Below are positions 8,952 through 60,407 of a DNA stretch of 64,000 nucleotides, one piece after another. Both the position numbers and the translations under genes were made by a program. The first letter of the stretch is position 1. Every line of letters starts with the position of its first letter. The notes beneath the pieces are model-generated. The model was not told the DNA's origin. It was given only the letters and a program-made list of their open reading frames with translations, and did no database searches. This DNA is from Rhizophagus irregularis (taxonomy: Eukaryota > Glomeromycota > Glomeromycetes > Glomerales > Glomeraceae): NCBI RefSeq assembly GCF_026210795.1, contig NC_089438.1, positions 4,733,501-4,797,500 on the forward strand, read 5' to 3'.

Positions 8952-11900
8952 CTAAACTGCTGCTAAATTTTTTAATTCACTTTTTTCTTGGTTTAATTCT
9001 AATTTCAATTCATTCAAATTCTTTCTTAATGAATTTATATCTTCTTCCATCATATTAGAATTTAATTGAATTCTGGTTCCTTCTTGAGAATTAGTAGCAA
9101 ATTTAAAAATTTTGTATTTATCAAGATTAAAAGAATTCAACCTAAGAATATTTTCAATCTTAAGGCTAACTTCCAACTCTTTATTTTCCTGAACAACATT
9201 TTTTAAGGAATAATGATTTTTGTTCAGCTCTAATAATCCATCATTATATTTTACAAGAGTATTTTGAAATTCTTTAGTATACTTGTCAGTTAATTCAGTG
9301 GTTTTCATACTTCTAGTAATATCAATAGAGTTTACTAAGCGATTATAACAATTTTGCAGTTTTTTAATAGCTTCTTCTCGTAAAGTTAGAAAAGCTTCCT
9401 TGGTTTTCAAAAAATTATTAACTTGTTTAAGAACTTGTTTTTTTCTATTGGCATTATAAGAAACTGAAGTTCTTGATAATTCTTGTTGGAGTTCATTTAT
9501 CTCTCTTTGTTTAGCTTCTTTTTCTTTATGAACTTCCTTAGTATTTTCTCCACTGGTTAATTTATCTATTAATTCCCCTTTGACTTTACTCAATTCTTTT
9601 TCTTTGACTTTTAGTTGTTTAATACGCTCTTGATCAAGAGTAACAAGATTCTTTTCTAATTCATTCACTTTATCTTCTTTAATCTGCAAAGCTTGAGTTA
9701 ATTGCATTTTGATTTGTTCTTCAATGATCAATTTTTGTTCCAATTGAGCCATTTCTTTTTCCAACTTGGCTTTCAATTCAGTAGTAAGCTTTTGATCTTG
9801 TAAGAGATCACTCATCTTATTTTGCAACCTAATTTTTTCTTGTTCTATTTGTTCATAATTAACTTGAAACTGTTTTAATCTATTTTCTAATTGCTCTTTT
9901 TGTTCAATTAAGCTTTCTTTGTAAGATGTTAATTCTTGAATATTAGCTTCTGTTTGAGCTAATTTTTCTTGCAATTTAGTTTCTTCTTGCTTTAAATGGC
10001 TGATTTGATCTTGAACTTGCTGGTTAGTTAGTTTATTTTGTTTTAACTGTTCAGTTAAATTGCTAGCTAGGTTTTGCTTTTCATTTTGTAGGTCAATAAT
10101 TTGGGTTTGTAAAATATTTTCTTTTTTTGCAAATTCTTTAATTTGTTCAGCTAAATTAAGCCTTAGATTTTGATTATTTTGTTCAAATTTAAAATTCCTT
10201 TGTTGTAAATCAAATAATTCATTTTCTAACTTAAGATTTTCTTCCTCTATTTGCTTATAATCAATTTGAAATTGATTTAATTGATTTTTAAATTGAGAAT
10301 TTCTTTGTTGTAAATTAACTAACTCATTTTGAGAACTTTGATAATAAGTTTCAGCAATCTTTTCTAACTTAAGATTCTCTTCTTCTACTTGCCTATGATC
10401 AATTTGAAATTGATTTAATTGATTTTTAAATTGATCTTGCTGAGATTTTAATTCTTGAATAATGGTTTGAATTAATTTATCTTGCAGATTATTTTTTTCT
10501 TGATTTAACTGACTGATTTGTTTTAACTGTTCAGCCAGCTTGCCATCTAAAGCTTGCTTTTCACTTTGCAGGTTTGTAATTTGGATTTGTAAAGTACTTT
10601 CTTCTTTTGCCAATTCTTCATTTTGTAAAATTGGATTTTGTTGTAAATTATCAGGAGATTCTTGAAAACCTTTTAGAATTTCATTTAATTCTTTACTAGT
10701 AAAATCAAGTAAATGACTTGTATAGCATGCTTTTGGATGGGAATTCACAATAAGGTTATTATGCTCAATTGGTGCATTTATAAATTCCATAATATCACTT
10801 TTTAATTCTTCATTAATATCTTCAATTTTCTTATTTTCAGAAAGAAAAATCCAATTTTTAATAATATCTAAAACTTCTTCAGATGATGGCCTTTTTAATG
10901 GATCTTCATCCCAACATTTTTTCATCAAATCTACATAACATTGTGGAGTATTTTTAATAATTTCAGGACGTTTACCTTTACAAATACTTAAAGCAAGTTG
11001 AAAATCATGTGCTGTATCATTAAATGGTGGAATTTCAGATGTAAATTCCCACATAATTATAGAAAAACTATATATATCACTAGCTTGAGTATAAGGTTGA
11101 CCTCTTAAAATTTCAGGTGCTATAAATGGTAAAACTCCATAAATATTATCTTCCTTTAAAAAAGAATTTGCAAGTTGATATAATCCTAAATAATCACTAA
11201 TATAAATATGTATATACGCATATTCATCACATAAAATATTACCATCATGAAAGTTATAATGAATAAGATTTTCTTTATGAATATCATTAAGGCCCACAAT
11301 AATTTGATATAGATTAAATAATTTTTGTACCCAACTTTTTGTCATTTCTGTTAAACATCTTCTTAAATTACCCTTATTTGTATATTCCATTATTAATATA
11401 TAATTCAAAGTATCTGGATCTTTTGTAAATCCATATATTCTAATAATTCTATCTGAAAAATTAATAATTTTCCACTATAAAAAATAATATTTATTAGTAA
11501 ATTAGCATAAATAGTAAACTATAAAATTATAATATTGAATCATACTTCATTTAAAAATTCATTTAAACTTTCATCTGAACTATTAAAATAATCAACATAT
11601 TTAAGAATTACTTCAACATCTTCATATATAGCTTTATATATAGTACCCAATCCTTCTTTATTAAGATATTTAATATTCTTAAATTTATCATAAGGGATCC
11701 ATTTTAAAGAATTATTAGTAATAAATTTATCCACAATTTTACTTCCACTAGTACCCAATCTTTAAATATAAAAATGAAATTATATTAAAATTTAAAATTT
11801 AATGTTAAATAATATTAATTATACTTACTCTAAATAAAATTATAAAATTTTAATATAATAAATAATTAATTAATTTAAATTTTATATAAATAATATATAA

Positions 11901-14900
11901 TATCTTATAACTTACCAACTAAAAAAAATCAATTATTTTTAAAAAGATTTATTAAGAATTATAATAAATTAAATATAAAAATATAGGATTATTACAATTA
12001 TAAAAAAGGCCAATACTTACGGGCTGAAATGTTTTAAATAATTTTTAGTTAGTTTAAGTTATATGTAAATATTATATAAATATAATAAATTACTTACAAA
12101 CTAAAATATTTGAATAATTTTTTAAGAATTTAGTTAATTTTAAATTATATGCAAATATTATATAAATATAATAAAAATTACTTACTAACTAGAATATTTG
12201 AATAATTTTTTAAATAAAGAATTTAGTTAGTTTAAATTATTTGTAAATATTATATAAATATAATAGAATTAAATAAATAACTTACATCCTATATTATTAA
12301 ATAAATAATTTTTTAAATAAAGAATTTAGTTAGTTTAAATTATTTGTAAATATTATATAAATATAATAAATTACTTACCATCTAAAATATTTGAATTATT
12401 TTTTAAATAAAGAATTTAGTTAGTTTAAAATTATATTGTAAACATTATATATGTAAATATTATATAAATATAATTAATTACTTACAACCTAAAACATTTG
12501 AATAATTTTTCAGTTAGTTTAAATTATATGTAAATATTATATAAATATAATAAATTACTTACCCTCTAAAATATTTGAATAATTTTTTAAGAATTTATTA
12601 GTTAGTTTAAATTATATATATTTAAATATTATATAAATATAATAAATTAATTACCATCTAAAATGTTTGAATAATTTTTTTAAGAATTTAATCAGTTTAA
12701 ACTATATGCAAATATTATATAAATATAATAAATTACTTACCAACTAAAATATTTGAATTATTTTTTAAATAAAGAATTTAATTAGTTTAAATTATATGTA
12801 AATATTATATAAATATAATAAATTACTTACAATCTAAGATATTTGGATAATTTTTTAAATAAAGAATTCAGTTAGTTTAAATTATATGTAAATATTATAT
12901 AAATTTAATAAATTACTTACGTCCTAAAATATTTGAATGATTTTTTAAATAAAGAATTCAGTTATTTTAAATTATATGCAAATATTATATTACATAAATA
13001 TAATAGAATTAAATAAACAACTTACTTTCTATATTATTAAATAAATAATTTATTAAATAAAGAATTTAGTTAGCTTAAATTGTATATAAATATTATATAA
13101 ATATAATAAATTACTTACTATCTTAAATATTTAAATAATTTTTTAAGAATCTAGTTTAAATTATATGCAAATATTATATAAACATAAGAATTAAATAAAT
13201 AACTTATAACTTACCAACTAAAAGAAATTACAAAATAATTTTTTAAAGAATTTAGTTAGCTTAAATTATAAGCAAATATCATATAAATATAATAGAATTA
13301 ATAAATAACTTATAACTTACCAACTAAAAGAAATTACAAAATAATTTTTAAATAAAAATTAAAGAATTTAATTAGTTTAAATTATATGCAAAAGTTATAT
13401 AAATATAATAGAATTAAATAAATAGCTTATAACTTACCAACTAAAAGAAATTAAAAAATAATTTTTAAATAAAGAATTTAGTTAGTTTAAATTACAATGT
13501 AAATATTGTATAATGAATTACTTACTATCTAAAATATTTGAATAATTTATAAGAATTTATTAGTTAGTTTTAATTATATGTAAAATATTATAATAATATA
13601 ATAAACTACTTACCATCTAAATATTTGGACAATTTTTTAAAGAATTAGTTAGTTTTAAATTATATGTAAATATTATATAAATATTAATTACTTACAATCT
13701 AAAATATTTGAATGATTTTTTGAATATAGAATTTAGTTAGCTTGAATTATATGTAAATATTAGATAAATATAATAATTACTTACATTCTAAAATGTTTGA
13801 ATGATTTTTTAAATAAAAAAATTTAGTTAGTAGTTAAATTATATGCAAATATTATATATTATATAAATATAATGGATTAAATAAATAACTTACTCTCTAT
13901 ATTATTAAATAAATAATTTTTTAAATAAAGAATTTACTTAGTTTAAATTATATGTAAATATTATATCAATGCAATAGAATTAAATAAACAATTTACCCCC
14001 TATATTATTAAATAAAGAATTTTTTAAATAAAGAATTAGTTAGTTTAAATTATATGTAAATACATAAATATAATAGAATTAAATAAATAACATACTCCCT
14101 ATATTATTAAATAAATAATTTTTTAAATAAAGAATTTAGTTTAAATTATATGTAAATATTATATAAATATAATAAATTACTTACGATCTAAAATATTTGA
14201 ATAATTTTTTAAATAAAGAATTTAGTTAGTTTAAAGTATATGTAAACACTATGTAAATATAATAAATTACTTACTTTCTATATTATTTAAATAAATAATT
14301 TTTTATATAAAGAATTTAATTAGTTTAAATTATGTAAATATTATATAAATATAATAAATTACTTACCATCTAAAATATTTGAACAATTTTTTAATAAAGA
14401 ATTTAGTTAGTTTAAAATTATATTGTAAACATTATATATGTAAATATTATATAAATATAATTAATTACTTACAACCTAAAACATTTGAATAATTTTTCAG
14501 TTAGTTTAAATTATATGTAAATATTATATAATATAATAGAATTAAATAAATAATTTACCCCCTATATTATTAAATAATTTTTAAATAAAGAATTAGTTAG
14601 TTTAAATTATATATAAATATTATACAAACAAGTAATAATAGAATTAAATATATAACTTACTCCCTATATTATTAACATAATTTTTTAAATAAAGAATTTA
14701 GTTAGTTTAAATTATATGTAAATAATATATAATATAATAGAATTAAATAAATAATTTACCCCCTATATTATTAAATAATTTTTAAATAAAGAATTTAGTT
14801 AGTTTAAATTATATGTAAATATAATAGAATTAAATAATTAACTTATAACTTACAAACTAAAAGAAATTACAAAATAATGTTTTAAATAAAGAATTTAATT

Positions 14901-17249
14901 AGTTTAAATTATATGTAAAATATTATATATTATATAAATACAATAGAATTAAACAAATAACTTACTCCCTATATTATTAAATAAATAATTTTTTAAATAA
15001 AGAATTTAGTTAGTTTGAATTATATGTAAATATTATATAAATATAATAAATTACTTACATTCTAAAAGATTTGAATGATTTATTAAATAATAAATTTAGC
15101 TAGCTTAAATTGTATGCAATTATTATATAAATATAATAAATTACTTACCATCTTCAATATTTAAATAATTTTTTAAGAATTTAGTCAATTTAAATTATAT
15201 GTAAATATTATACAAATATAATAGAATTAAATAATTAACTTATAACTTACCAACTAAAAGAAATTACAAATAATTTTTTAAATAAAGAATTTAATTAGTT
15301 TAAATTATATGTAAATATTATATGAATATAATAATTACTTACATTCTAAAATATTTGAATAATTTTTTAAGAATTTAGTTAGTTTAAATTATATGTAAAT
15401 ATTATATAAATATAGTAGAATTAAATAATTAACTTATAACTTACCAACTAAAAGAAATTACAAATAATTTTTTAAATAAAGAATTTAGTTAGTTTATAAA
15501 TTGTATAAATAAAATATAAATAAATAACTTACATTCTATAAATGATTTTTAATAAAGAATTTAGTTAGTTTAAATTATAATGAAATATTATATAAATATA
15601 ACAGGATTATTAAATAACTTACTCCCTATATTATTAAACAAATAATTTTTTAAATAAAGAATTTAGTTAGTTTAAATTACATGTAAATATTATATTAATA
15701 TAATAGAATTAAATAAATAACTGAACTTACTCCCTATATTATTAAATAAATAATTTTTTAAATAAAGAATTTATTTTAAATTATATGTAAATATTATATA
15801 AATATAATAAATTACTTACAATCTAAAATGTTTGAATAATTTTTTAAATAAAGAATTTAATTAGTTTAAATTATTAAATGTAAATATTATACAAATATAT
15901 TACTTACATTCTAAAATATTTGAATAATTTTTAAATAAAAAATTTAGTTTAGTTTAATAAATTATATGTAATAAATATTATATAAATATAATAAATTACT
16001 TACCATCTAAATATTTGGACAATTTTTAAAGAATTGGTTAATTTTAAATTATATGTAAATATTATATAAATATAATAGAGTAAATTTATTCATCGCACGT
16101 GCGATGCATCGCCACTTTCCTTTTTTGTAAATTATTTATGTTGATCAACCTGCTTATACATCGCCACCCCCCTTAAAATGGCAATGATAAACATAAAAAT
16201 TTGCATCGCACGTGCGATAAATAAATTATTTCAATATAATAAATCACTTACCATCTAAAATATTTGGATAATTTTTTAAATAAAGAATTTAGTTAGTTTA
16301 AATTATATGTAAATATTATATAATAGAATTAAATAAATAGCTTACTTTCTATATTATTTAAATAATTTTTTAAATAAAGAATTTAGTTAGTTTAAATTAT
16401 ATGTAAATATTGTATAAATATAATAAATTACTTACCATCTATAATATTTAAATAATTTTTTAAATAAAGAATTTAGTTAGTTTAAATTATATATAAATAT
16501 TATATAAATATAATAAATTACTTACCATCTAAAAATTTAAATAATTTTTTAAATAAGAATTTAGTTAGTTTAAATTATATATAAATATTATATTAAATAA
16601 TATAATGAATTAAATAAATAACTTACACCCTGTAGCATTGTTAATTAATAATAATTTTTAAGTAAAGTAATTATAATCAATTAGATAAAATATTATAATT
16701 GTATAAAAATTAAATATATACAGTAACTTACAATCTAATTATTTAAATAAATAATTATTAGTTTAAATTATATATAAATATTGTTAAATTAATATAAAAT
16801 TAATTAAATACTTACTTTCTATAATATCAGTGATTATTAAACAACCATATTATTAAATGGGAAATTTAGTTATTTGAAATATTGTTAAAAATTAAATAAC
16901 TATTAACTTACCAACTGTAATAATATTAATAATAAAATAAATTATTTGGTTATATAAAATAATAGAAGTAAGTAATTAATTATCATTTCAACTACAAGAT
17001 AACCTAGTATTACTTACGAGCTAATATGGTAAAACAATTTTTAGACATGGTTAGTTTAAAAATTTAAATTATATATTTATAATTTACAAGCTGTTAAATA
17101 ATTTTCTTACCTTTATCTTCCTCAATTTTTGAAACTAGTTTTATTGTATTACAAATATGTTTTAAGAAAAATTTTAGAATAATTTCAATTTGTATTATAT
17201 ATCTATATTCATGCTATGTGCTTTTACCTTCATCACTAGTTTGAGCCAT
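8952..17249 (-). CDS. kinase-like coiled-coil protein with a 55-unit microexon array in its 5' half
   Basis: Proposed model, transcribed right to left. Exon 1 is 17249-17228 (ATG, 22 nt, MAQTSDE); exon 2 is 17134-17111 (24 nt, VSKIEEDK). Then come 54 three-nt exons and one 1-nt exon (see the array entry), exon 58 at 11759-11546 and exon 59 at 11474-8952. The sum is a whole number of codons, about 981 residues. The kinase fold is split over the last two exons. EGLGTIYKA is the Gly loop and VILKYV holds the beta-3 Lys. The catalytic loop reads IHYNFHDGNIL where relatives have IHRDLHSGNIL, so the catalytic Asp is Asn. ISDYLG replaces ISDLG, while APEILRGQPYTQASDIYSFS and CWDEDPLKRPS are kept. 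This makes it a likely pseudokinase. From about residue 380 to the end it is a long Gln/Glu/Leu/Lys coiled coil (QLNQEKNNLQDKL-type heptads). The kinase family and both large exons are secure; the 5' structure rests on splice-signal reading. Confidence 0.8.
11829..17090 (-). repeat. tandem array of 55 intron-like units separated by 3-nt microexons
   Basis: Unit length is mostly 85-115 bp. On the minus strand each unit reads: donor (GTAAGT in about 48 of 55, otherwise GTAAGC, GTAAAT, GTATGT or GTAATT), AT-rich body, CTAAC branch-like motif, T-rich tract, acceptor (mostly TTTTAG or TATAG, a few CAG or AAG), then a triplet followed at once by the next donor. First base (plus numbering) of the triplets in transcript order: 17088, 17018, 16912, 16816, 16732, 16627, 16526, 16436, 16346, 16252, 16004, 15908, 15820, 15731, 15623, 15533, 15445, 15343, 15251, 15149, 15059, 14966, 14854, 14760, 14661, 14559, 14473, 14367, 14275, 14185, 14096, 13997, 13894, 13785, 13696, 13614, 13526, 13438, 13321, 13215, 13119, 13026, 12921, 12831, 12741, 12655, 12563, 12486, 12379, 12286, 12186, 12098, 12021, 11916; then one base at 11829. 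Triplet counts: ATG 9, TTG 8, AAT 5, GGA 5, ATT 4, AAA 4, GGG 3, GTT, TTT and ATA 2 each, ten others once. Alternative view: a plain intronic satellite. Confidence 0.85.
16078..16232. mobile_element. MITE inside the microexon array (Mutator-like, 9-bp duplication)
   Basis: A 155-bp element with inverted ends of about 30 bp. The core ATCGCACGTGCGATGCA is present at both ends and is itself a 14-bp palindrome around CACGTG. The 9-mer aatataata flanks it on both sides (16069-16077 and 16233-16241). Deleting the element plus one copy of the 9-mer restores an ordinary array unit running into 'aaatcacttaccatc', which identifies it as an insertion. It lies wholly inside the intron between the triplets at 16252 and 16004, lengthening it from about 81 to 245 nt and leaving the splice signals intact. 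Confidence 0.85.
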
Positions 17250-32497: not shown

Positions 32498-32561
32498 AAT
32501 AAATTTAATTTATTAATCTTTTAAAATTTTCCCTTCATTTATTATAAAGTATAATAATAAT

Positions 32562-34273
32562 ATGATCTCAAAATTATTCGAAAATTTTAATTACCTTTCA
32601 TTGATAGGTATCGCATTAATAACTTATGTGACATATTATTATTATAGATATTTTACTCGTATCAATCCTTTACCTGGTCCTTTTCCATTTCCATACTTTG
32701 GAAATTTACCTCAATTATATATTTCGAATGGTGGAAGTCTCAAAAAATTTTTCGAAACTAATCAAAAAAAATATGGTGATTTATTTGAGTTCTATTTTGA
32801 AGTACGCTTTATAGGACTAAATCGAATAGAACAAATTCAAAAACTTATATTAGCTTCAGCAAAAAATCCATTTATTAAGAAAATTTCTAATGAAAATGGT
32901 CAAGGATTTCATGAATTAGGAGCGTTAGGAAAAGGAATATTATTAAATCAAGATTATAAATCATGGAGTTTTAATCGTAATTTTTTTACACAAGCTATTT
33001 TATCACCAAGATTTGTCAATGAAGCTCCTAATTTGGTAAATGAACTTTTTAATGAATTGGAGAGTTATTGGGATAGATTATATCTTAAAGAAAATGCTAT
33101 AAAAGAGAATAGAAATAAATTGGATATTTCTGTATGGTTCAATTTATTTACAAATGATATGATTTTCGCTTTATTAACTGGTGAAAGATTTTATACAATG
33201 GCAGGATATTTTAATGAACTCAGTGATGATGAAAAAGCTGAAAGACCATCTGCATTAATTGATGAGACAGTAAAATTTGTTAATGCAATTCATAAACATT
33301 TTTTGGGTTTATTAATGTTTCAATTCGTATCTCCTTTTTTAAGACATTATTTTCCATATTTTAAGAAAAAATCTGATGATATTCTTCAAAATCTCAAATT
33401 TTTAAATCAAAGAATGGATGAAATTATTAAAAAACGTAAACAAGAAATTGAAGATACTCCATTAGATAAACCTTTACCAAGTGACTTTTTGACTTCAGTA
33501 ATTGTTGCAAATACACCTCGTGATGTTAATTATAATAAAATTGTTGATAAAGAAGCTAATAGACCTATGACTGATCTTGAAATTCGTGGTATTTTATTTG
33601 ATGGAATAGTTGGTGGAACTGATACTGTGAGTATATTTTTTAGTACTTTCAATATATAATTAATTTTGATTATTAATATTATTTAACGCTTTATTCTTTC
33701 TTTCAATAGACTGCGAATACTGTTTCATACATTATCTATTATCTTTCACTTTATCCAGATGTTAAAAAGAAAATGTTGGACGAAATTGATAGAAACTTTC
33801 AAGGTGACAAAAAACGTCCAATTACCAGAAAGGATATTAATAATTTAAAATATTGTGAAGCGGTTATAAAAGAAGTATCTCGTATTTTCCCAGTCGTAAA
33901 TTCATTTCCAAGATGTCTTGAAAAACCTGATGAAATAGCAGGTTATCAATGGCCAGCTGATACAATGTTAAGAATTAATATTGATGCTATGAATCTTAAT
34001 GAAGACTATTGGGATGAACCAAATAAATTTAATCCCGATAGATGGATGGTTGAAGGGTTTGAACCAAAGAAAAAAGCATTTGTTATGTTTGGAGGAGGAT
34101 TAAGACTATGTCCAGGAAGAAAGTTGGCAATGCTTGAATTAGCTGGTTTAATAGCTTTAATATATAGAAAATATGATATTGATGTAATAGATAAGAAAGC
34201 TCCTTTAAAAACTGAATCAAGTATTATAACAGCTTGTTCTGAATTATTAGTTGAAATTAAATTAAGAAATTAG
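32562..34273 (+). CDS. cytochrome P450 (P450-1)
   Basis: Two exons, 32562-33626 and 33710-34273, give 542 residues; the intron (GTGAGT...AATAG) interrupts the I-helix between Thr and Thr. Landmarks in order: N-terminal membrane anchor (FNYLSLIGIALITYVTYYYY); Pro-rich hinge NPLPGPFPFPYFGNLPQL; I-helix GGTDT/TANT; K-helix ExxR in KEVSRIF; PxRW in FNPDRWMVEG; heme loop FGGGLRLCPGRKLAM with the axial Cys. All parts of a working microsomal monooxygenase are present. It would be anchored in the ER and need a P450 reductase. The substrate is unknown; P450s in this kind of fungus often act on sterols, fatty acids or xenobiotics, which is general knowledge only. It is the outermost member of the cluster and in tandem with P450-2. 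Confidence 0.95.
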
Positions 34274-36600: not shown

Positions 36601-36662
36601 TATTATTATTTTTTTAAAAATTTAAAATTTTTCCTTTATTTATTATTATAAAGTATAATAAA

Positions 36663-38392
36663 ATGATCTCTAAATTGTTCGAAAATTTTGATTACCTTAC
36701 ATTAATAGGTATCACATTAATAATTTATGTGACACATTATTATTATAAATATTTTACTCGTATCAATCCTTTACCTGGTCCTTTTCCATTCCCATACTTT
36801 GGAAATTTACCTCAATTATATATTTGGCATAATGGAAATCTTAAAAATTTTTTCGAATCTAATCATAAAAAATATGGTGATTTATTTGAATTACATTTTG
36901 ATACACGAATTATAGCTTTAAATAGATTAGAATATATTGAAAAACTTTTATTGGCTTCATCAAAAAATCCATATATTAGAAAAATTTCTGATAATGATAG
37001 TAAAGGATATCATGAATTAGGGATAATGGGAAAGGGAATATTATTAAATCAAGATTTTAAATCATGGAGATATAATCGTCATTTTTTTACACAAGCTATT
37101 TTATCACCAAAATTTGTCAATGAAGCTCCTCTTTTGATAAATAAACTTTTTAATGAATTGGAGAGTTATTGGGATAAATTATATATTAAAGAAGGAGTTA
37201 TTAATGAGAATAGAAATAAAATGGATGTTTCTACATGGTTTAATCAATTTACAAATGATATGATTATCGCATTATTAACTGGTGAAAGATCTTATACTAT
37301 GGCTGGGTATTTTAATGAACTTAGTGAGAATGAAAAAGCTGAACGTCCATCTGCATTAATTGATAAGACTGTAAAATTTGTTCATGCAATTCGTAAACAT
37401 TTTTTGGGTTTATTAATGTTTCAATTCGTATCTCCTTTTCTAAGACATTATTTTCCATATTTTAAGAATAAATCTGATGATTTTATTCAAAACATCAAAT
37501 TTATAAATCAAAGAATGGATTCAATTATCAAAAGACGTAGAGAAGAAATTGAAAATACTCCATTAGATAAACCTTTACAAAACGACCTTTTGACATCGAT
37601 AATCACTGCAAACACACCTCGTGATATTAATTATAATAAAATTGATGATAAAGAAGTTATGAGACCTATGACTGATCTTGAAATTCGTGGTATTATATTT
37701 GATGGAATAATTGCTGGAACTGATACTGTGAGTATATTTTTTGTACTTTTGTCAAATATTTAAAAAAAAAATTTTTTGATTTTTTGATTTTGAATATTAT
37801 TTTAACGTTTTATTCTTTCCTTGAATAGACTGCGAATACTATTTCATTCATTATCTATCATTTGGCACATTATCCAGATGTTAAAAAGAAAATGTTGGAC
37901 GAAATTGATGGAATCTTTCAAGGTGATAAAACGCGTCCAATTACCGAAAATGATGTTCATAATTTAAAATATTGCGAAGCGGTTATAAAAGAAGTATCTC
38001 GTATTTTCTCTGTCGTAAATTCATTTCCAAGATGTCTTGGAAAACCTGACGAAATAGGAGGTTATCAATGGCCAGCCGAAACAATGATTAGAATTAATAT
38101 TGATGCTATTCATCATAACGAAGAATATTGGGATGAACCTGATAAATTTAATCCTGATAGATGGATGGTTGAAAGTTTTGAACCAAAGAAAAATTCATTT
38201 ATTATGTTTGGAGGAGGATTAAGAGTCTGTCCAGGAAGAAAGTTGGCAATGATTGAATTAGTTTGTTTAATGGCTTTATTATTTAGAAAGTATGATATAG
38301 ATTTAATAGATAAGAAAGCTCCTTTAAAAACTGAATCAAGTATTATAACTACCTGTACCGAATTATTAGTTGAAATTAAATTAAGAAAATAA
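36663..38392 (+). CDS. cytochrome P450 (P450-2)
   Basis: Exons 36663-37727 and 37829-38392 give 542 residues, the same length and intron position as P450-1. The anchor is followed by NPLPGPFPFPYFGNLPQL. The I-helix is AGTDT/TANT, ExxR is in KEVSRIF, FNPDRWMVES is present, and the heme loop is FGGGLRVCPGRKLAM. It differs from P450-1 mostly in the substrate-recognition stretch after the hinge (ELHFDTRIIALNRLEYIEKL). It lies head-to-tail after P450-1 with a duplicated upstream flank, so the pair arose by tandem duplication. By these motifs it is closer to P450-3 and P450-4 than to P450-1. Confidence 0.95.
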
Positions 38393-40498: not shown

Positions 40499-42212
40499 CT
40501 AATTTCTTAATTTAATTTCAACCAATAATTCAGTACATGCAGTTATAATACTTGATTCAGTTTTTAAAGGAGCTTTCTTATCTATTAAATCAATATCATA
40601 TTTTCTAAATAATAAAACCATCAAACAAACTAATTCAATCATTGCCAATTTTCTTCCTGGACAAACTCTTAATCCTCCTCCAAACATAATAAAAGAATTT
40701 TTCTTTGGTTCAAAACCTTCAACCATCCATCTATCAGGATTAAATTTCTCAGGTTCATCCCAATATTCTTCATTATTATGAATAGCATCAATATTAATTC
40801 TAATGATTGTATCAGCTGGCCATTGATAACCTCCTATTTCATCAGGTTTTTCAAGACATCTTGAAAATGAATTTGCAACTGAAAAAATACGAGATACTTC
40901 TTTTACAATCGCTTCACAATATTTTAAATTATGAATATCATTTTCGGTAATTAGACGCGTTTTATCATCTTGAAAGATTCTATCAATTTCGTTCAACATT
41001 TTTCTTTTAACATCTGGATGATGTGCAAGATAATAGACAATGAATGAAATAGTATTCGCAGTCTATTGAAGGAAAGAATGAAGGAAAAAATAAGACGTTA
41101 AAATAATATTCATCAAAAATTTTGTTAAATATTTACAAAATACTCACAGTATCAGTTCCAGCAATTATTCCATCGAAAATAATAACACGAATTTCAGAAT
41201 CGGTCATGGGTCTCGTAACTTCTTTATCATCAATTTTATTATAATTAATATCACGAGGTGTATTTGCAGTGATTATCGATGTCAAAAGGTCGTTTGATAA
41301 AGGTTTATCTAATGGAGTATTTTCAATTTCTTCTCTACGTCTTTTGATGATTGCATCCATTCTTTGATTTATAAATTCGATGTTTTGAAGAATATCATCA
41401 GATTTATTCTTAAAATATGGAAAATAATGTCTTAAAAAAGGAGGGACGAATTGAAATATTAATAAACCCAAAAAATGTTTACGAATCGCATGAACAAATT
41501 TTACAGTCTCATCAATTAATGCAGATGGACGTTCAGCTTTTTCATCATCACTAAGTTCATTAAAATATCCAGCCATAGTATAAGATCTTTCACCAGTTAA
41601 TAATGTGATAATCACATCATTTGTAAATAGATTAAACCATGTAGAAACATCCATTTTATTTCTATTCTCATTGATAACCTCTTCTTTAATATATAATTTA
41701 TCCCAATAACCTTCCAATTCATTAAAAAGTTTATTTATCAAATGAGGAGCTTCGCTGACAAATTTTGGTGATAAAATAGCTTGTGAAAAAAAATTACGAT
41801 TATATCTCCATGATTTATAATCTTGATTTAATAATATTCCCTTATCCATTATCCCTAATTCATGAAATCCTCTACAATTTTTATCAGAAAATTTCTTAAT
41901 ATATGGATTTTTTGATGAAGCCAATAAAAGTTTTTCGATATATTCTATTTTATTTAAAGTTATAAAGCGTCCATTAAAATAGAACTCAAATAAATCACCA
42001 TATTTTTTATGGTTAGATCCAAAAAATTTTTTAAGATTTCCACCATGCCAAATATATAATTGAGGTAAATTTCCAAATAATGGGAATGGAATAGGGCCAG
42101 GTAAAGGATTGATACGATAAAAATATTTATAATAATAATGTGTCACATAAATTATTAATGTGATACCTATCAATGAAAGGTAATCAAAATTTTCGAACAA
42201 TTTCGAGATCAT
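40499..42212 (-). CDS. cytochrome P450 (P450-3)
   Basis: Exons 42212-41148 and 41062-40499 on the minus strand give 542 residues with the cluster's usual I-helix intron. It has the hinge NPLPGPIPFPLFGNLPQL, I-helix AGTDT/TANT, KEVSRIF (ExxR), FNPDRWMVEG and heme loop FGGGLRVCPGRKLAM. All landmark residues are present, with no frame damage. Within 1.7 kb upstream there is a short scrap of the kinase gene (42735-42790), a sign that P450 and kinase genes were copied together. Confidence 0.95.
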
Positions 42213-42290
42213 ATTGTTAATATGATAATTAAATGAATTTTCTTGTTTGATAATAAATAAAAAAAAAAATATTTAAAAAATTAATTTATT

Positions 42291-44821: not shown

Positions 44822-47114
44822 CTAAATATCTATTATAAAAAAAAAAATATTGTTAAATTATGTAATTGTTAATAAAATTTAATATTTAAAAACAAATTCT
44901 TACCTTCAGGAAGTTCCAATTCATCTTGCTCTTCTGAATGAAGATTTGGATTGTTATGTGCTTCATCTTCATCTACCAAATATATAATGTATTAAAATTA
45001 AAAAATCAATGAAAAAAAATAATAATATAAAGTAATTATTATAAGAATTGTTTATGTACCATTATCTTTAATATGATGATTCATTGTTTGCTGTTGCATT
45101 GCTCCAATCTTATAATCATTTTGAGTATCTAAAAAAAATTGTATCATATTTAATATTAATAAAATTATATTATAATTAACGTACTTTTAATTACTTTACT
45201 TGCCATTTTTTGAGCTTCTTTTAAATATATTGGATAACCTTTTGCTGCTAACTAAATAATATTAAATATAAGTTATTCGTTCATTTCAAAATAAAATATA
45301 TTATTTAATTACCTTTGAATAATCTACTCATTTTTGAAGTACTATTTTTCTTACTACTTAATTTATCAAAATCATCAACTAAAAAAAGCAAAATAAGTCA
45401 ATAACAACGTTTCATTATATAAAATTTAAAGTAAATGTAATTGCACTTACTATTATTAGGAATATGAAAATTATTATATGATTTATTACTGTGAAATGCT
45501 ATAAAAAAATTAACCATGTTATCATTAATTTTATAAATTAAAATTATATAAGAATTTATTTAATTTATACCTTCTTGTTCTTCTATTATAATATTTAAAT
45601 TAAAAAAAATAAACATTATTAATTAAATATATTAATACACTATTTAAGCAATTAACAAAAAGCAATAAATACCTTCTGTTGCATTTCTTGGTTTAGGAAG
45701 ATTATCAAATTGATGAAGTTTACTTGTAAATAGTTTGCTACTGTTAGTATAATTTTCCATTTCAAAATTATTATTTTCTTCTGGTTGAGTTAATGATTCA
45801 TTTGATTTACTTTGATAAAATAAATTAATTTCTCTCATCTTATTATCAAGTGTATTAATATCAGGTCTTTTTGATGGATCAGCATCCCAACATTGTTTCA
45901 TTAAATTTTTATATTCTAAAGGAGTTCCTGGTACAATTTTTGGTCTTATGCCATTAACAATATTCATAGCAAGATCATAATCATGTTCACAATCAATAAA
46001 TGGTGGTTGTCCAGATGAAATTTCCCACATAAGTATTGCAATACTATAAATATCAGATTTAAAAGTTTGTTCTTTTCCAATAATAACCTCAGGTGCTATA
46101 TAAGGAAGATTTCCATATATACTTTTTAATGGTTTATCTGCAGGTCCGCAAAATCCAAGATCACTAATACTAAATCTATTTTTAAATAATATATTTCCAG
46201 AATGCAAATCTCTATGAATTGCATTTTCTTCATGAATTCTTTGAAGTGCAAGAGTTATATAAGTAACAATTTGAATTCTTTCTTTCCATGTAAGTTGATT
46301 ATGATTTTGTTGTAAATATTTTCTTAAATCTATATTCATCTTATTCATTACAAGCATATAATCTCCATTTGATGGATCTTGTGTTAATCCATAACATTGG
46401 ACAATCTCGCCCCATTTATTGCTTATATTTAAATGTGATTTAGCCTATAAAATAAACCATTATAAAATTTTAAACAAAAAATTAATTTGCAACTATTTTA
46501 ATATTTAGATTACAAACCTCTTCAATCCAATTTTGATTTGCATTTTCAACATTTTCTAATTTTTTAAGTATTACTGCTTGTACTAAACCAGTTTCTCTAA
46601 GTCTTTTTAATTTTTGCCCTTCAGAATCCCATTCATAATATGCTCCATTAATCCAGGCTGCTGTATAAATTTCTGAAAATCCACCTTTTGTTAGATATTC
46701 AATATTTTGTAGATTATTATATGGAATCCATTCTGGTATTAAGTCTGGATTAATTGTCTTCATTTGACATTCTTGTATTAAATTATCAATAATAACATTC
46801 CCAGATGTCCAATTTGAAAAATTTGCTTTTAAATAATTTCGAACACAATATTCACAATATGTTATGGCTAAACATTCTTGGCTACAATTTTCACAAATTC
46901 TTTTTGTTCCTTCATTAAAAAGAAGTTTGGCATAATCATAAATTTTAGTTATTATTCTTATTGCTTCAGATTTTTCATTTTCCGTAAGTGATTCATCATC
47001 AAGAAGTATTTGTTTTCTAAGTTCATAAAATGTATCACTATTAAGAGTGTTATCTAATAATGCATATGACCTATTAAGTGCATTATTAATTGATTTATTT
47101 TCACCATATGACAT
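44822..47114 (-). CDS. tyrosine-kinase-like protein kinase (kinase-1)
   Basis: Nine exons on the minus strand: 47114-46518, 46444-45673, 45582-45571, 45498-45451, 45378-45313, 45251-45204, 45128-45060, 44972-44904 and 44829-44822. They total 1689 nt, a whole number of codons (562 residues). The N-terminus has a Cys-rich metal-binding-like patch, ICENCSQECLAITYCEYCV. Kinase motifs are GGFSEIYTA, VILKKL, IHRDLHSGNIL, ISDLGFC, APEVIIGKEQTFKSDIYSIA and CWDADPSKRPD, with all catalytic residues intact. The C-terminal tail is encoded by small exons (KRLSNIFKRSSKN, then NNPNLHSEEQDELELPE) and is Ser/Asn/Glu-rich, probably unfolded. Exon 3 is only 12 nt, and the intron after exon 6 uses GC-AG. These kinases are greatly multiplied in mycorrhizal fungi; substrates are unknown. 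Confidence 0.9.
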
Positions 47115-48352
47115 AATGAATATTTTATAAGGCTTTAAATTCTTTTATAAAAATATGCTTATTAATTTTTTAAAATAAAAAAAAAAAGAAAAGGTTGAAA
47201 CCGGCGTTTTAACTCCGAAGTTATACAGATTAAAATAGTAATGTATAACCAAAATGAATGTTACATAAACAACATTGTACTACCTAAATTTGTGATATGC
47301 ATGCAAATCAACGTTACATAAAAAAGAAAGAAAAAAAGAAGTCGTCATTATATAAATTACTAATTTGATAGGTTAAATTTTTTTTTTTTATTTAATAAAA
47401 ATCATCAAGAAACTATGCTAATGTCACACTTCTCAATTACGTAGACGTAAAAGGCTAATATTAAGCACTGCATACGCCACATACTAGTAATATAATCCCA
47501 GTGATTTGTTTTATAATTTAAAAAACTTTAAATATTACAAACCTTCCAGAAAAAGTCCCGCAGCTACAAATAAAATCTTTCACTTGACAATAAAAATTTT
47601 TTTTTTGGAATATTAAATTATTTTTCCGTACTTATCTAAGGATCTGCAAGGTGACTTCTTGTTCCACTATCTATTTAATCACACTTTCTTTATTTATGGT
47701 TACCATGTGACTATCATTTTTACTTCGCCACCCGCAGCAGGTTGAAAATTTTTCTTCATCAAAAACTTTAAGGTCATATAACATCTTATTTACTCCATAA
47801 AAGTTAAATAAAAACACCCTTATTGAACTTTTTATCAAAAAAAAAAAGGCTTGAACTTCTTTATCATTTTCCAAAATATTTCAACTTTTTGTTGAAACAT
47901 CGTTGGCCGGTTTGGTCGATATTTCTTTATTTTCCAAAAATAAAAAAAAAATTCAAAAAATATACATAATCTATAATAAAAGGATAACAAAAGTTGATTT
48001 TAATAAGGATAGACTCAAAAATTAATAAAATTTGTAAATTCTTCAATTTTTTCATATAACTTATTGTCATTTTTTTTGACCATAAAATGTTTGGTTAAGT
48101 CTCGATCGAAAGGAAGAGTTTTTTTTTATAGTTTGAAATCTTTTATTACTCTTGTAATAATTATTAATGAAAAATATGTTTGCTAACAGTATAACGTCAT
48201 AAGAATTTGGTATCCAGAGTTCAAATTAATCAGTATCAAAATAAAAAAAAATTTAACAAATGTCAATTTCACATATGTAATAAAAGATTTTTTCTTTATT
48301 TTACTTTTAAATATGATTGAAAAATTCAATTTACGTTATTATTAAATATTAT
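47115..48352. other. spacer between kinase-1 and the P450 pseudogene
   Basis: Homologous along most of its length to 56446-57420 upstream of kinase-2: shared aaccaaaatgaatgttac, cattgtactacctaaattt and gatctgcaag blocks. No gene is seen. Confidence 0.6.
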
Positions 48353-54259: not shown

Positions 54260-56445
54260 TTAAAATAAATTCTTAGGAAGTTCCAATTCATCTTGTTCTT
54301 CTGAATGAAGATTCGGATTGTTGTACGTATCATCTTCGTCTATCAAATATAAATTAAAATTAAAAAATCAAAAAAATAATTATTTTAATAATTTAAATAA
54401 TTGTTTAATCATACCATTATCGCTAATATGAAGTTTCTTTATTCGCTTTCGCATTGACTCAATCTTATAATCATCTAGTAAATGATAGTAATAAATCATG
54501 TTTAATATCATAATAAAATTAATATATTTTAAATTATTTTACTTGCCATTTTTTGAGCTTCTTTTAAATATATTGGATAACTTTTTGCTGCTAACTAAAT
54601 AATCTTAAATATAAGTTATTCGTTCATTTCAAAATAAAATATACTATTTAATTACCTTTAAATAAGCTACTTATTTTTGAAGTACTATTTTTCTTACTAC
54701 TTAATTTATCAAAATCATCAACTAAAAAAGCAAAATAAGTCAATAAATAACGCTTCATTATATAATATTTAACTAAATGTAATTGTACTTACCATTATTA
54801 GGAATATGAAAATTATATGATTTGTTACTATAAAATGCTATAAAAAAATTAACCATGTTATCATTAATTTTTATAAATTAAAATTATATAAGAATTTGTT
54901 TAATTTATACCTTCTTGTTCTTCTATTATAATATTTAAATTAAAAAAAAAATAAACATTATTAATTAATTATATTAATAAACTATTTAAGCAATTAACAA
55001 AAAGCAATAAATACCTTCTGTTGCATTTCTTGGTTCAGGAAGATTATCAAATTGATGAAGTTTACTTGTAAATAGCTTGCCACTGCTGGTATAATTTTCC
55101 ATTTCAAAATTATTATTTTCTTCTGGTTGAGTTAATGATTCATTTGATTTACTTTGATAAAATAAATTAATTTCACTCATTTTTTTACTAAGTATAAAAC
55201 TATCAGGTCTTTTTAATGGATCAGCATCCCAACATTGTTTCATTAAATTTTTATATTCTAAAGGAGTTCCTAGTATAATCCTAGGTCTTATTCCATTAAC
55301 AATATTCATAGCAAGATCATAATCATGTTCACAATCAATAAATGGTGGTTGTCCAGATGAAATTTCCCACATAAGCATTGCAATACTATAAATATCAGAT
55401 TTAAAAGTCTGTTCTTTTCCAATAATAACCTCAGGTGCTATATAAGGAAGATTTCCATATATACTTTTTAATGGTTTATCTGCAGGTCCACAAAATCCAA
55501 GATCACTAATACGGAATACTTCACCAAAATTATACAGTATGTTTCCAGAATGCAAATCTCTATGAATTGCATTTTCATCATGAATTCTTCGAAGTGCAAG
55601 AGTTATATTAGTAATAATTTGAATTCTTTCTTTCCATGTAAGTTGATTATGATTTTGTTGTAAATATTTTCTTAAATCTATATCATATTTATTCATCACA
55701 AGCATATAATTTCCATTTGATGGATCTTGTGTTAATCCATAACATTGGACAATACCATTCCATTTATTGCTTATATTTAAATGTGATTTAGCCTATAAAA
55801 TAAACCATTATAAAATTTTTAGCAAAAAATTAATTTGTCAACTATTTTAATATTTAGATTACAAACCTCTTCAAGCCAATTTTGATTTGCATTTTCAACA
55901 TTTTCTAATTCTTTAAGTATTACATAACAATTTTCAAGTCTTTTTAATTGTTGCCCTTCAGAATCCCATTCATCATATGATCCATTGATCCAGACTGCTG
56001 TATAAATTTCTGAAAATCCACCTTTTGTCAGATATTTAATATTTTGTAGATTATTATATGGAATCCATTCTGGTATTAGGCTTGGTTTAATTGTCTTCAT
56101 TTGACATTCTTGTATTAAATTATCAATAATAACATTTTCAGATGTCCAATTTGAAAATTTTGCTTTTAAATAATTTCGAACACAATATTCACAATATGTC
56201 GTAGCTAAACATTCTTGGTTACAATTTTCACAAATTCTTCTTGTTCCTTGATTAAAAGTAACTTTGTTAAGATCATAAGTTTTAGTAATTATTTTTATTG
56301 CTTCAGATTTTTCATTTTCCGTAAGTGATTCATCATCAAGAAGTATTTGTTTTCTAAGTTCATAAAATGTATCACAATTAAGAGTGTTATCTAATAATGC
56401 ATATGATCTATTAAGTGCATTATTAACTTTTGGATTATAAGACAT
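54260..56445 (-). CDS. tyrosine-kinase-like protein kinase (kinase-2)
   Basis: Eight exons on the minus strand: 56445-55867, 55792-55015, 54922-54911, 54837-54793, 54721-54656, 54594-54547, 54474-54415 and 54339-54260. They total 1668 nt, giving 555 residues. It is a close paralogue of kinase-1: Cys patch ICENCNQECLATTYCEYCV, GGFSEIYTA, VILKEL, IHRDLHSGNIL, ISDLGFC, SDIYSIAMLMWEIS and CWDADPLKRPD. The catalytic residues are intact. It keeps the 12-nt exon and the GC-AG intron. It differs at the 3' end: a small deletion removed the donor of the last intron, so exon 8 runs on and ends LELPKNLF-stop instead of splicing to the final short exon. A stretch after RSSKN is more basic (MRKRIKKLHI). 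Confidence 0.9.
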
Positions 56446-58618
56446 TATGAAATATGTTATAAAGCTTTAAAATCTTTTATAAATATATTTATTGATTTTT
56501 TAAGTAAAAAAAAAGAAAGGATGCAACCGGAATTTAATTCCCGAATTTATACATATAAGAATAGTAATGTGTAACCAAAATGAATGTTACAAAAAGCAAC
56601 ATTGTACTACCTAAATTTATGATATGCACGCAAATCAACGTAAGAAAGAAAAAAAAAGTTGTCGTTATACAAATTACTGATTTGATAGTTTAAAATCTTT
56701 TTTTAAAAAATAAAAAAATTTCTTAAATGAAAATCATCAAGAATGCTACACTTCTTAACTACATAGACGCAAAAGATAATAATAAAGCACTGCATACATC
56801 ACATTATTCACATACTAATATAAATTCCCAATAAGTATTATCATCCTTCCAGAAAGTACCGCAGTTACAAATAAAAATCTTCCCACTTGACAATAGAGTT
56901 TTTTGGAATATATTATTATTCCGTTCTTATCATTCTTAATCTAAGGATCTGCAAGATGGAGTCGTTCCACTATCTATTCAATCAATCATCATTACTTGTA
57001 TCACCTTTACTTCGCCACCGCAGCCATCTTCAAAGGTTGAAAATTTCTCTTCATCAAAAACTTTAAGGTCATATGACCGTCTTCTTTACTCCATAAAAGT
57101 TGAATAGAGCACTATCATACTGACATTTAACACTCGGCTCTTATTGAACTTTTTTTTAAAAAAATAGAGCTTGTCGTTTTTTCAAAATATTTCAACTTTT
57201 CGTGTAAAGCATCTTTGGTCGATATTTCTTTATTTTCCAAAAAAAAATTCAAAAAATATACATAACCTAGGAATGAAAAGAATGTCAAAAGTTGGTTTTA
57301 ATGAGACTCAAAATCAATAAAATTTGTAACTATTCGGTAACTTATTTGTCATGTTTTAACCATAAATTTTTTGATCGAGTTCTCGATCGAAAGGAAGATT
57401 TTTTTTTCTAGTTTATTATACTTGTGATATATTAAGTGTGACAGGAAATACGTACACTTTAATTGGATTTTTTATATGTACAATTAACCAATTTAACTAC
57501 GCATAACAGTCATGTGATCGAAGTATCATATGACAATCGTGACGTTACGATGAAAATGTTAAAATAAAAGCGTTTTACAGGCATAATTATTGAATATGAT
57601 TTATTTTGTTAAGAAATGATTTTTGGATGAAAACAGCTTATATTTTATTTATTTTTTTTTTCTTTATTTAAAAAATCATTAAAAATTATGAATATATAAA
57701 TTTTTTTTTTAATTTGTTAATATCTACAGTAAATTACAATTAATTTTATGAACACGATATACTAAATTTTTATGATGATACATGATCTAAATCATACAAA
57801 TAATGATGACAGAAAAAATTACCAACATACGGATTCATATTTAATTGAAAAAAAAATAATATAATATAAAAATACATTATTTTAAACATTTGTCAAAGAT
57901 TAGTTATTTTTTTTTCTTTAAATTTTAGAAAAGATTTTTATATAGTATTTTACTAATTAATTATTAATCATTCATTATTATATATATAATATTGTTTAAC
58001 AGGACTTATTAACAGGACCAGTGCACAAAAATTTTTGGAAATTTTCCGAAAAGATCTAAATTGATTTTTTTGCATCGGAACATGTGACCGAAATGAATAA
58101 ATTTTACCGGCGCCAATGTTTTGCTTTACGGTATAAAATAAATGAATTCGGTAGACGAGGAATTTTTTTTAGTTTTTTTACTCGTTTCTTGGACTTATTG
58201 GTACATTTGGTACATTTACTACATGACTTAAGATTAAATTCCTAAAGTTATCCTTATTATTAAAAGAAAATATAAAACTATCCTTTATTTTCCCATTTTC
58301 ACCTCGATCTATGATCGAATCCCTCCAAATCAAAGGATTATATCCTCCAAGAATTTCTTCTATTATTTAATATTGTTTTATAAATTTTTATTTTAAATAT
58401 TAAGCTATAATGTAAATTTATCTATGAATGAAAAATATGTTTGCTATCAGTATAATGTCATAAAATCTTTACATTTGTCATTTTTTTTTTTTTTGATTTT
58501 GGATACCGAATTATTAAGATTTTTTTTATTTATTTTTTTCTTAATATGATTGAAAAAATTCAATTTACAAAAATTATTAAATATTGCATATTATTTTAAA
58601 ATACTTAAACTAAAAATG
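56446..58618. other. spacer between kinase-2 and P450-4
   Basis: 56446-57420 is homologous to 47115-48100. 57420-58618 is AT-rich with long T runs and no supported feature. Confidence 0.5.
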
Positions 58619-60344
58619 TTAATTTCTTAATTTAATTTCAACTAATAATTCATTGCAAGCGGTTATAACACCAGATTCAGTTCTTAAAGGAGATTTCTTA
58701 TCTATTAAATCAATATCATATTTTCTAAATAATAAAGCCGTTAAACAAACTAATTCAAGTATTGCTAACTTTCTTCCTGGACAAACTCTTAGTCCTCCAC
58801 CAAACGAAATAAAAGAATTCTTCCTTGGTTCAAAACCTTCAACCATCCATCTATCAGGATTAAATTTCTCAGGTTCATCCCAATATTCTTCATTATGATG
58901 AATAGCATCAACACTAATTTTAATCATTGTTTCAGCTGGCCATTGATAACCTCCTATTTCATCAGGTTTTTCAAGACATCTTGAAAATACATGTACGACT
59001 GAGAATATGCGAGATACTTCTTTTACAATTGCTTCACAATATTTTAAATTATGAACATCATTTTCAGTAATTGGACGCGTTTTGTCATCTTGAAAGATTC
59101 TATCAATTTCGGTCAACATTTTTCTTTTAACATCTGGATGATGAGCAAGATAATAGACAATGAACGAAATAGTATTCGCAGTCTATTGAAGGAAAGAATG
59201 AAGGAAAGAATAAAACGTTAAAAAAAATATTCAAACCCAAAAATTTTGTCAAATAATTAAAAAATATACTCACAGTATCAGTTCCAGCAATTATTCCATC
59301 GAAAATAATAACACGAATTTCATGATCATTCATAGGTCTCATAACTTCTTTATCATCAATTTTATTATAATTAATATCACGTGGTGTATTCGCAGTGATT
59401 ATCGATGTCAAAAGGTCACTTGGTAAAGGTTGATCCAATGGAGTATTTTCAATTTCTTCTCTACGTCTTTTGATAATTGCATCCATTCTTTGATTTATAA
59501 ATTTGATGTTTCGAATAAAATCATCCGACTTATTCTTAAAATATGGAAAATAATGTCTTAAAAAGGGAGATACGAATTGAAACATTATTAAACCCATAAA
59601 ATGTTTACGAATCGCACGAACAAATTTTACAGTCTCATCAACTAATGCAGATGGACGTTCAGCTTTTTCATCATCACTAACTTCATTAAAATATCCAGCC
59701 ATAGTATAAGATCTTTCACCAGTTAATAATGCGATAATCATATCATTTGTAAACTGATTAAACCATGTAGAAATATCCATGTTCTTTTTATTTTCCTTTA
59801 ATATAACTCCTCCTTCTTTAAGATATAATTTATCCCAATAACCTTCCAATTCATTAAAAAGTTTATTTATCAAATGAAGAGCTTCATTAGCAAATTTTGG
59901 TGATAAAATAGCTTGTGAAAAAAAATGACGATTATATCTCCATGGTTTAAGATCTTGATTTAATAATATTCCCTTTCCCATCAATCCTAATTCATGAAAT
60001 CCTTTACTATCCTTATAAGAAAATTTTTTAATATATGGATTTTTTGATGAAGCTAATAAAAGTTTTTCAATATATTCTATTCGATTTAGAGCTATATTTC
60101 GTGTATCAAAATTAAACTCGAATAAATCACCATATTTCTTATGACTAGTTTCGAAAAATTTTTTAAGATTTCCATTATGCCAAATATATAATTGAGGTAA
60201 ATTTCCAAAAAATGGGAATGGAAAAGGACCGGGTAAAGGATTGATACGAGTAAAATATTTATAATAATATTGTGTCACATAAATTATCAATGTGATACTT
60301 ATTAATGAAAGGAAATCAAAATTTTCGAATAATTTCGAAATCAT
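58619..60344 (-). CDS. cytochrome P450 (P450-4)
   Basis: Exons 60344-59274 and 59182-58619 on the minus strand give 544 residues, two more than its relatives because of an extra pair in a Lys/Asn/Glu-rich loop (GGVILKENKKN). Landmarks: NPLPGPFPFPFFGNLPQL, AGTDT/TANT, KEVSRIF, FNPDRWMVEG and heme loop FGGGLRVCPGRKLAI. Reading through the intron would add a spurious C-terminus, so the spliced form is used. It is intact and closest in sequence to P450-2 and P450-3. A young MITE sits just upstream of its promoter block. Confidence 0.95.
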
Positions 60345-60407
60345 ATTATTTATAAATTAAATGAATTTTCTTGATTGATAATAAATAAAAGAAAATATTT
60401 ATTAATT

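Follow-up and report, generated by a model that had tools for sequence, protein, structure and literature searches.

On the minus strand of a 64,000-nucleotide stretch of the Rhizophagus irregularis genome (assembly GCF_026210795.1, contig NC_089438.1, positions 4,733,501 to 4,797,500; this whole stretch is called the window below) we found a gene that appears to encode part of its protein at one codon per exon. Between two short coding exons and a predicted pseudokinase lie 53 consecutive exons of 3 nucleotides (nt), followed by an exon of a single nt. Judged from the sequence, we consider it about 90% probable that this array of one-codon exons is translated ahead of the predicted pseudokinase, and that it has been amplified and shuffled by recombination between its near-identical introns. 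The gene is laid out as follows, in window coordinates.

17228..17249, minus strand: exon 1, 22 nt, with the ATG start; encodes MAQTSDE plus one base and so ends in phase 1; placed by hand
17111..17134, minus strand: exon 2, 24 nt, encodes VSKIEEDK and retains phase 1; GTAAGA follows; placed by hand
11916..17020, minus strand: micro-exon array, 53 consecutive 3-nt exons separated by GT-AG introns of 74-114 nt and one of 245 nt
11829..11829, minus strand: 1-nt exon (A), phase 1 to phase 2
11546..11759, minus strand: first kinase-like exon, starts LGTSGSKIVDKF; placed by hand
8952..11474, minus strand: second large exon, with the remainder of the predicted pseudokinase and a long tail; the stop codon ends at 8952; placed by hand
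16092..16218, no strand assigned: insert-like stretch of 127 bp within the 245-nt array intron, bordered by two copies of the palindrome ATCGCACGTGCGAT

The original prediction had described 54 consecutive 3-nt exons within a minus-strand series of complete intron signals. The array does lie where it was placed; 53 of its exons are 3 nt long, and the 54th is instead the 1-nt exon at 11829. The series of intron signals was recovered as 55 introns by a dynamic programming parser; its score is built from donor, branch and acceptor, any exon length within 1-40 nt is equally acceptable to it, and it ignores the reading frame. Two coding exons upstream (exons 1 and 2) and kinase exons downstream (11759-11546 and 11474-8952) are also found as described. 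The array scored 663, compared with 9-33 for ten dinucleotide shuffles, none of which yielded a 3-nt exon, and 95 for the opposite strand. Eight other 6-kb stretches of the window scored at most 43 on either strand, with a single isolated 3-nt exon in 2 of 16 cases. The array introns are about 90 nt long and run from GT to AG, with a strong donor, a CTAAC-type motif and an AG acceptor.

We searched the 146.7-Mb assembly (32 contigs, the window lying on contig C13) for related arrays. The intron core has 2449 matches with at most 2 mismatches and none in the reversed pattern, while exon 2 with its donor matches 16 places (at most 3 mismatches). Pooled counts refer to 22 loci (19, and 3 added later); three more (L033-L035) were parsed apart, giving 25. 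One locus (L018) was left out, no array being found there by the parser, and L001-L008 are 3-kb pieces that stand outside the statistics. With the frame-blind parser, 877 of 940 internal exons in the 22 loci are 3 nt long and 17 are 1 nt long, a succession of internal exons much shorter than 51 nt and in multiples of 3, as in structurally defined micro-exon genes. Under a second parser setting, some slips of 7 nt arose in L014 and some inserts were exonised; these length counts include both. Between 3-nt exons there are 823 introns with a median length of 93 nt; the donor is GTAAGT in 624, and the acceptor is TTAG in 454 and ATAG in 310. Their GT-AG (or GC-AG) ends and typical length are those of U2-type spliceosomal introns, and CTAAC-type motifs are both scored by the parser and visible. 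The gene, originally described as feeding one kinase-like protein, does have a predicted kinase-like product; it is, however, one member of a family, and its domain looks like a pseudokinase.

We examined whether the spliced order of the triplets carries a coding signal. Entry in phase 1 is dictated by exons 1 and 2, and each junction codon joins the last base of one triplet to the two leading bases of its successor. In the window no stop occurs in these codons, as originally claimed (shuffles average 3.57 stops, and 0.8% of them have as few), and another phase is indeed closed, by 14 stops. Across the 22 loci, one stop was found at 822 neighbour junctions, where 39.3 +/- 4.7 were expected, and none of 2000 within-run triplet shuffles was as low; 21 of the 22 loci have no such stop. 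A shifted frame meets 101 stops in 19 loci. When 1, 2, 3 or 4 micro-exons are skipped, the new junctions contain 41/777, 45/732, 45/689 and 33/650 stops, against expectations of 38.0, 36.1, 34.8 and 33.0. Stops are thus depleted at neighbour junctions and not at skip junctions, and selection has therefore acted on the complete, ordered and fully spliced product. The same comparison bears on the proposal that the array is a cassette bank from which each mRNA takes a subset of 3-nt exons, generating combinatorial isoforms. Nearly all units are 3 nt long, so that skipping would be frame-neutral, and the discussion of a plant micro-exon study (PMC4674806) describes exons shorter than 51 nt as promoting exon skipping. 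Yet products that skip even one exon bear stops at the chance rate (41/777) and are hence unprotected by selection, and we regard variable inclusion as unlikely. Occasional skipping of a micro-exon is possible beside full inclusion.

The signal was followed through successive sets of loci. A first test set gave one stop in 482 junctions (26.7 expected), and later loci read with the first parser gave two in 162 (7.9 expected), this second set taking in L024, whose introns had been partly inspected earlier and which was absent from the first stop test. Both later stops fall exactly at units that the parser had jumped, the donor being GC-AG in one case and a weak GTAATA in the other, and both vanish with a parser that admits such donors.

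The 1-nt exon provides a second line of evidence. Exon 2 ends in phase 1 and the kinase exon needs phase 2; the single nucleotide supplies the difference and restores the kinase frame. When the first loci were searched with a gap of 0-4 nt permitted from AG to the donor motif, all 9 matches had a 1-nt exon, and its base was A each time. Free parsing places a 1-nt exon in 17 of the 22 loci (A in 15, C once, G once), and in a second subfamily the freely parsed array also ends with a 1-nt exon, the base being A, C or G. According to these parses, the exon is conserved in length and variable in base. The terminal signature of the array occurs at 18 genome places and a related pattern at 9 others, giving 27 loci; both patterns contain the 1-nt exon, and the figure is therefore a count of places and not a test of the exon. 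A kinase match from the 150 scored tblastn matches is found no more than about 500 bases away from 16 of the 18 places and from all 9 of the others.

This frame relation also bears on a minisatellite explanation, in which the splice-like motifs are passengers of a repeat and the array is spliced out in one piece, as a single large intron. Much of the array does consist of tandem repeats, with periods near 90 bp and multiples thereof, and the 2449 core matches across the genome would suit a satellite. If the array and the 1-nt exon were skipped together, however, exon 2 would be joined directly to the kinase exon and the frame would shift from phase 1 to phase 2. Nor would a passenger repeat be expected to lack stops only between immediate neighbours, and we consider this explanation highly improbable.

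Where the units differ from one another is a further point on which a neutral satellite and translated micro-exons part. That splice signals are kept while triplets vary, as originally proposed, is borne out by the information per position in 504 units from 15 sequence stretches: the three triplet positions have 1.71, 1.59 and 1.99 bits, donor positions +3 to +6 have 0.15-0.49 bits, and AG and GT are invariant, as the parser requires. We counted substitutions on 290 nearest-unit edges (at most 5 differences in 72 flanking bases). Differences per site amount to 0.023 in the intron interior and to 0.128, 0.238 and 0.310 at the triplet positions, which is 5.5, 10 and 13 times as much change. At the second triplet base, the third codon position in the junction frame, the ratio of transitions to transversions is 8:61, compared with 194:168 in the interior (Fisher 2e-11, a nominal value since duplication and conversion link the units to one another, and this base is seldom C). 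An excess of transversions at this position is expected if mainly amino acid-changing variants have been kept. The first base (13:24, nominal p 0.04) shows a deviation that was not predicted, and the third (50:40, nominal p 0.8) resembles the interior. A neutral satellite, with neither position-specific constraint nor a codon signal, should not give this pattern, and diversification in the triplets rather than in their flanks speaks against the removal of the array as a single intron.

A minimal relative, L035, has eight 3-nt exons and a 1-nt exon. Its introns have a mean mutual identity of 62% (best pair 71%) versus 57% (best 63%) for shuffled sequences, an excess that may come from shared splice signals. 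Here one-codon exons lie between non-repetitive introns, and satellite periodicity can therefore not be their cause, a further argument against a minisatellite. Of the L035 introns, the one flanked by ATG and CTT most resembles those of the window (mean 0.74, best 0.88). A plausible order of events is that an old run of one-codon exons existed first and that one mid-run intron-codon unit was later amplified in tandem. L034 contains an amplified array of a related intron without the exact window-type core string. The number of 3-nt exons per locus ranges from 6 (L024, a short parse) to 84, and ATT GGT near the start is common to 16 of 19 loci. The 84 are found in the largest array, L009+L010 (C13:288000-307500), which leads to a tail exon with no kinase domain between; its first exon apparently requires an unusual donor. 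If the core matches beyond those seen belong to comparable arrays, scaling from match number would give a genome-wide total of roughly 3,900 exons of this type.

Taken together, neighbour-only stop avoidance, the frame-restoring 1-nt exon, codon position-specific substitution and the recurrence of this architecture in a relative whose introns are non-repetitive support the original proposal that one-codon exons are spliced into one kinase-like protein. Several observations weigh against it. The parser was repaired only after both held-out stops were known. Three new loci were for this reason tested with the repaired parser (exon limit 60 instead of 40) and gave 0 stops in 175 junctions (4.5 expected; 0.5% of shuffles as low); no stop was found in L033-L035. 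Triplets read as codons of their own are equally stop-free (0 stops, 19 loci), which leaves this reading open as well, and the phase is settled by the neighbour test together with the flanking exons. Because tandem copies are not independent, significance is overstated by the shuffle and Fisher tests, and the same dependence affects the skip controls. Among the 940 internal exons, 46 are neither 3 nor 1 nt long; some of these are visible parser artefacts at inserts or GTAA slips, only part having been checked. Intron lengths between 3-nt exons are uneven modulo 3 (247, 328, 248; p 0.0004), for which we have no explanation beyond duplication. An intronless copy of the start of the spliced segment, which would prove splicing, was not found in the genome within 3 mismatches (the string of first triplets used included CTT, which was dropped for the window but does parse in L027), nor was an intronless copy of the minimal gene L035. 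Splicing about fifty micro-exons in series would moreover demand very high fidelity.

One in-frame stop persists, in L011 (ATT|AGA, at a 90-nt intron), and may mark a dying copy. It could also be taken to indicate that the array was formerly spliced and is now decaying, with transcription or translation beginning below it in the present gene, and inserts in the introns of several loci including the window would agree with this. We give such decay very little credence: the 53 triplets of the window are stop-free, its second large exon is open for 840 codons, and 21 of 22 loci are clean at neighbour junctions. Besides the insert-like stretch of the window, long introns that resemble inserts are seen in several other arrays.

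Translation of the array thus remains our preferred reading, and we considered how it might work. Each short intron would be removed by intron definition, and neighbouring introns would be spliced stepwise, because a 3-nt exon is too small to accommodate both machineries at once. The constitutive mRNA would then encode a variable segment of about 54 residues ahead of the predicted pseudokinase and a coiled-coil-like tail. Unequal crossing-over or conversion within the near-identical introns could add, remove or reorder whole codons without a frameshift, and selection would retain diversified, stop-free versions. The segment would probably serve as a variable surface for binding or recognition, ahead of the predicted pseudokinase. 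A broader idea, genome-encoded codon shuffling, seems to us about as likely as not. In it, each codon of a variable, receptor-like segment sits in its own intron cassette, recombination between near-identical introns inserts, deletes and reorders single residues without a frameshift, and the splicing of up to 84 one-codon exons plus a frame-setting 1-nt exon would yield pseudokinases of varied sequence, which might recognise partners or distinguish self from non-self.

Exons of the aphid bicycle genes are reportedly tens of bases long and not one codon. In the available part of their description (PMC9168663), these genes, among them a 'megacycle' with >100 microexons, likewise have very many small internal exons, nearly all of one phase, and form a large family of fast-evolving proteins; they are set apart by description as putative gall effectors rather than kinases, and that part mentions no tandem array of near-identical introns. 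The micro-exon genes of Schistosoma, as far as the source available to us describes them (PMC10526429), also contain runs of short, mainly frame-preserving exons, but these number 10-20 and are mostly 15 bp long (range given as 6-81 bp in the text and 3-81 bp in the abstract), and introns of 0.1-5 kb and secreted proteins set them apart by description. Functional 1-nt exons are described in plant APC11 and VPS55, with conserved GTRAGT donors in VPS55 and a proposal of intron definition and stepwise splicing; in the portions available of both papers (PMC4674806, PMC8831610) they are single micro-exons without an array. Drosophila homothorax has a functional 3-nt exon, which the available part of the report (PMC7392893) presents as one alternatively spliced exon. 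Searches of open-licence PubMed Central papers (preprints and most subscription papers fall outside this scope) found neither consecutive one-codon exons nor introns arrayed in tandem so that each unit carries a single codon, and the available parts of the R. irregularis assembly paper (PMC10234402) and of the SP7 effector paper (PMC11333574) make no mention of one-codon exons. What would be new is the tandem array with one residue per exon, since microexon-rich genes as such are already known.

If the reading is correct, this protein segment becomes contiguous in coding sequence only after splicing, residue by residue, and the arrays would be a test case for the way in which a spliceosome copes with dozens of 3-nt and 1-nt exons in series. 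Introns would act as recombination arms for the shuffling of single codons, a route to protein diversity not met in the surveyed papers. A model mycorrhizal genome would then hold hundreds of one-codon exons (877 parsed in 22 loci) and perhaps, by rough extrapolation, thousands, which gene predictors and standard aligners would presumably miss.

The predicted window protein matches PF07714 over residues 102-342 (Pfam profile, E 8e-32), and PF00069 with E 5.7e-31, which places it in the kinase family. The motifs of an active kinase are absent: HYN stands for HRD, with loss of the catalytic Asp, and DYL for DFG, with the first Asp kept. HYN (8 loci) or HYS (1 locus) together with DYL occurs in 9 of 19 loci, and the searched motif is unmatched in the other 10 stretches. 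The domain hence looks like a pseudokinase. A further kinase with an intact HRD (HRDFHSGNIL) lies next to a HYN pseudokinase at L023 4839. The 54-residue array segment contains 14 aromatic and 8 Lys/Arg residues, as originally counted, and 15 rather than 14 acidic ones. By eye, the tail is coiled-coil-like, and no obvious hydrophobic core is seen in the predicted N terminus MAQTSDEVSKIEEDK. When the first 130 residues of the predicted protein were searched against a protein database, none of 109 candidates reached E <= 0.01, and hence no outside homologue or transcript-derived protein was found. We also ran tblastn with a 126-residue query made of the array segment (about the first 55 residues) and the kinase start. 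Among the 150 scored of 3183 candidates, the earliest match begins at residue 39 and the rest at 42 or later; a TAA interrupts many of the matches that extend into the segment, which is what reading on into an intron should produce. Some open matches from about residue 42-49 (for example C24:1599004, C2:1192607, C2:647517) may be kinases in which the last residues of the segment are contiguous. Predicted tryptic peptides of the window product are ALENWYDENDEYWR, FEFDEWIWGR and HFDEGYGFISLELGTSGSK, the last of which covers micro-exons, the 1-nt exon and the kinase exon.

Two exon boundaries in the window were revised. The triplet CTT at 17090 was rejected as the first micro-exon because the intron upstream of it would be only 20 nt long. 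In place of the parser's last acceptor, CTAG|T, we use AAAG|A, which lies 12 nt upstream in the same frame, since related genes place their acceptor at that position; the first kinase-like exon accordingly has a second possible acceptor 12 nt downstream, with the frame unchanged. Elsewhere in the window, four similar gene copies, two per strand, are found at 32517-34270, 36618-38389, 40502-42272 and 58622-60356. They share a membrane anchor-like N terminus, MISKLFENF, and an exon 2 that starts TANTIS or TANTVS, and by eye they are cytochrome P450-like. Two further, very similar gene copies at 45647-47144 and 54989-56466 (KSHLNISNKW..IVQCYGLTQDPSNG) appear kinase-like by eye in their first 60 residues.

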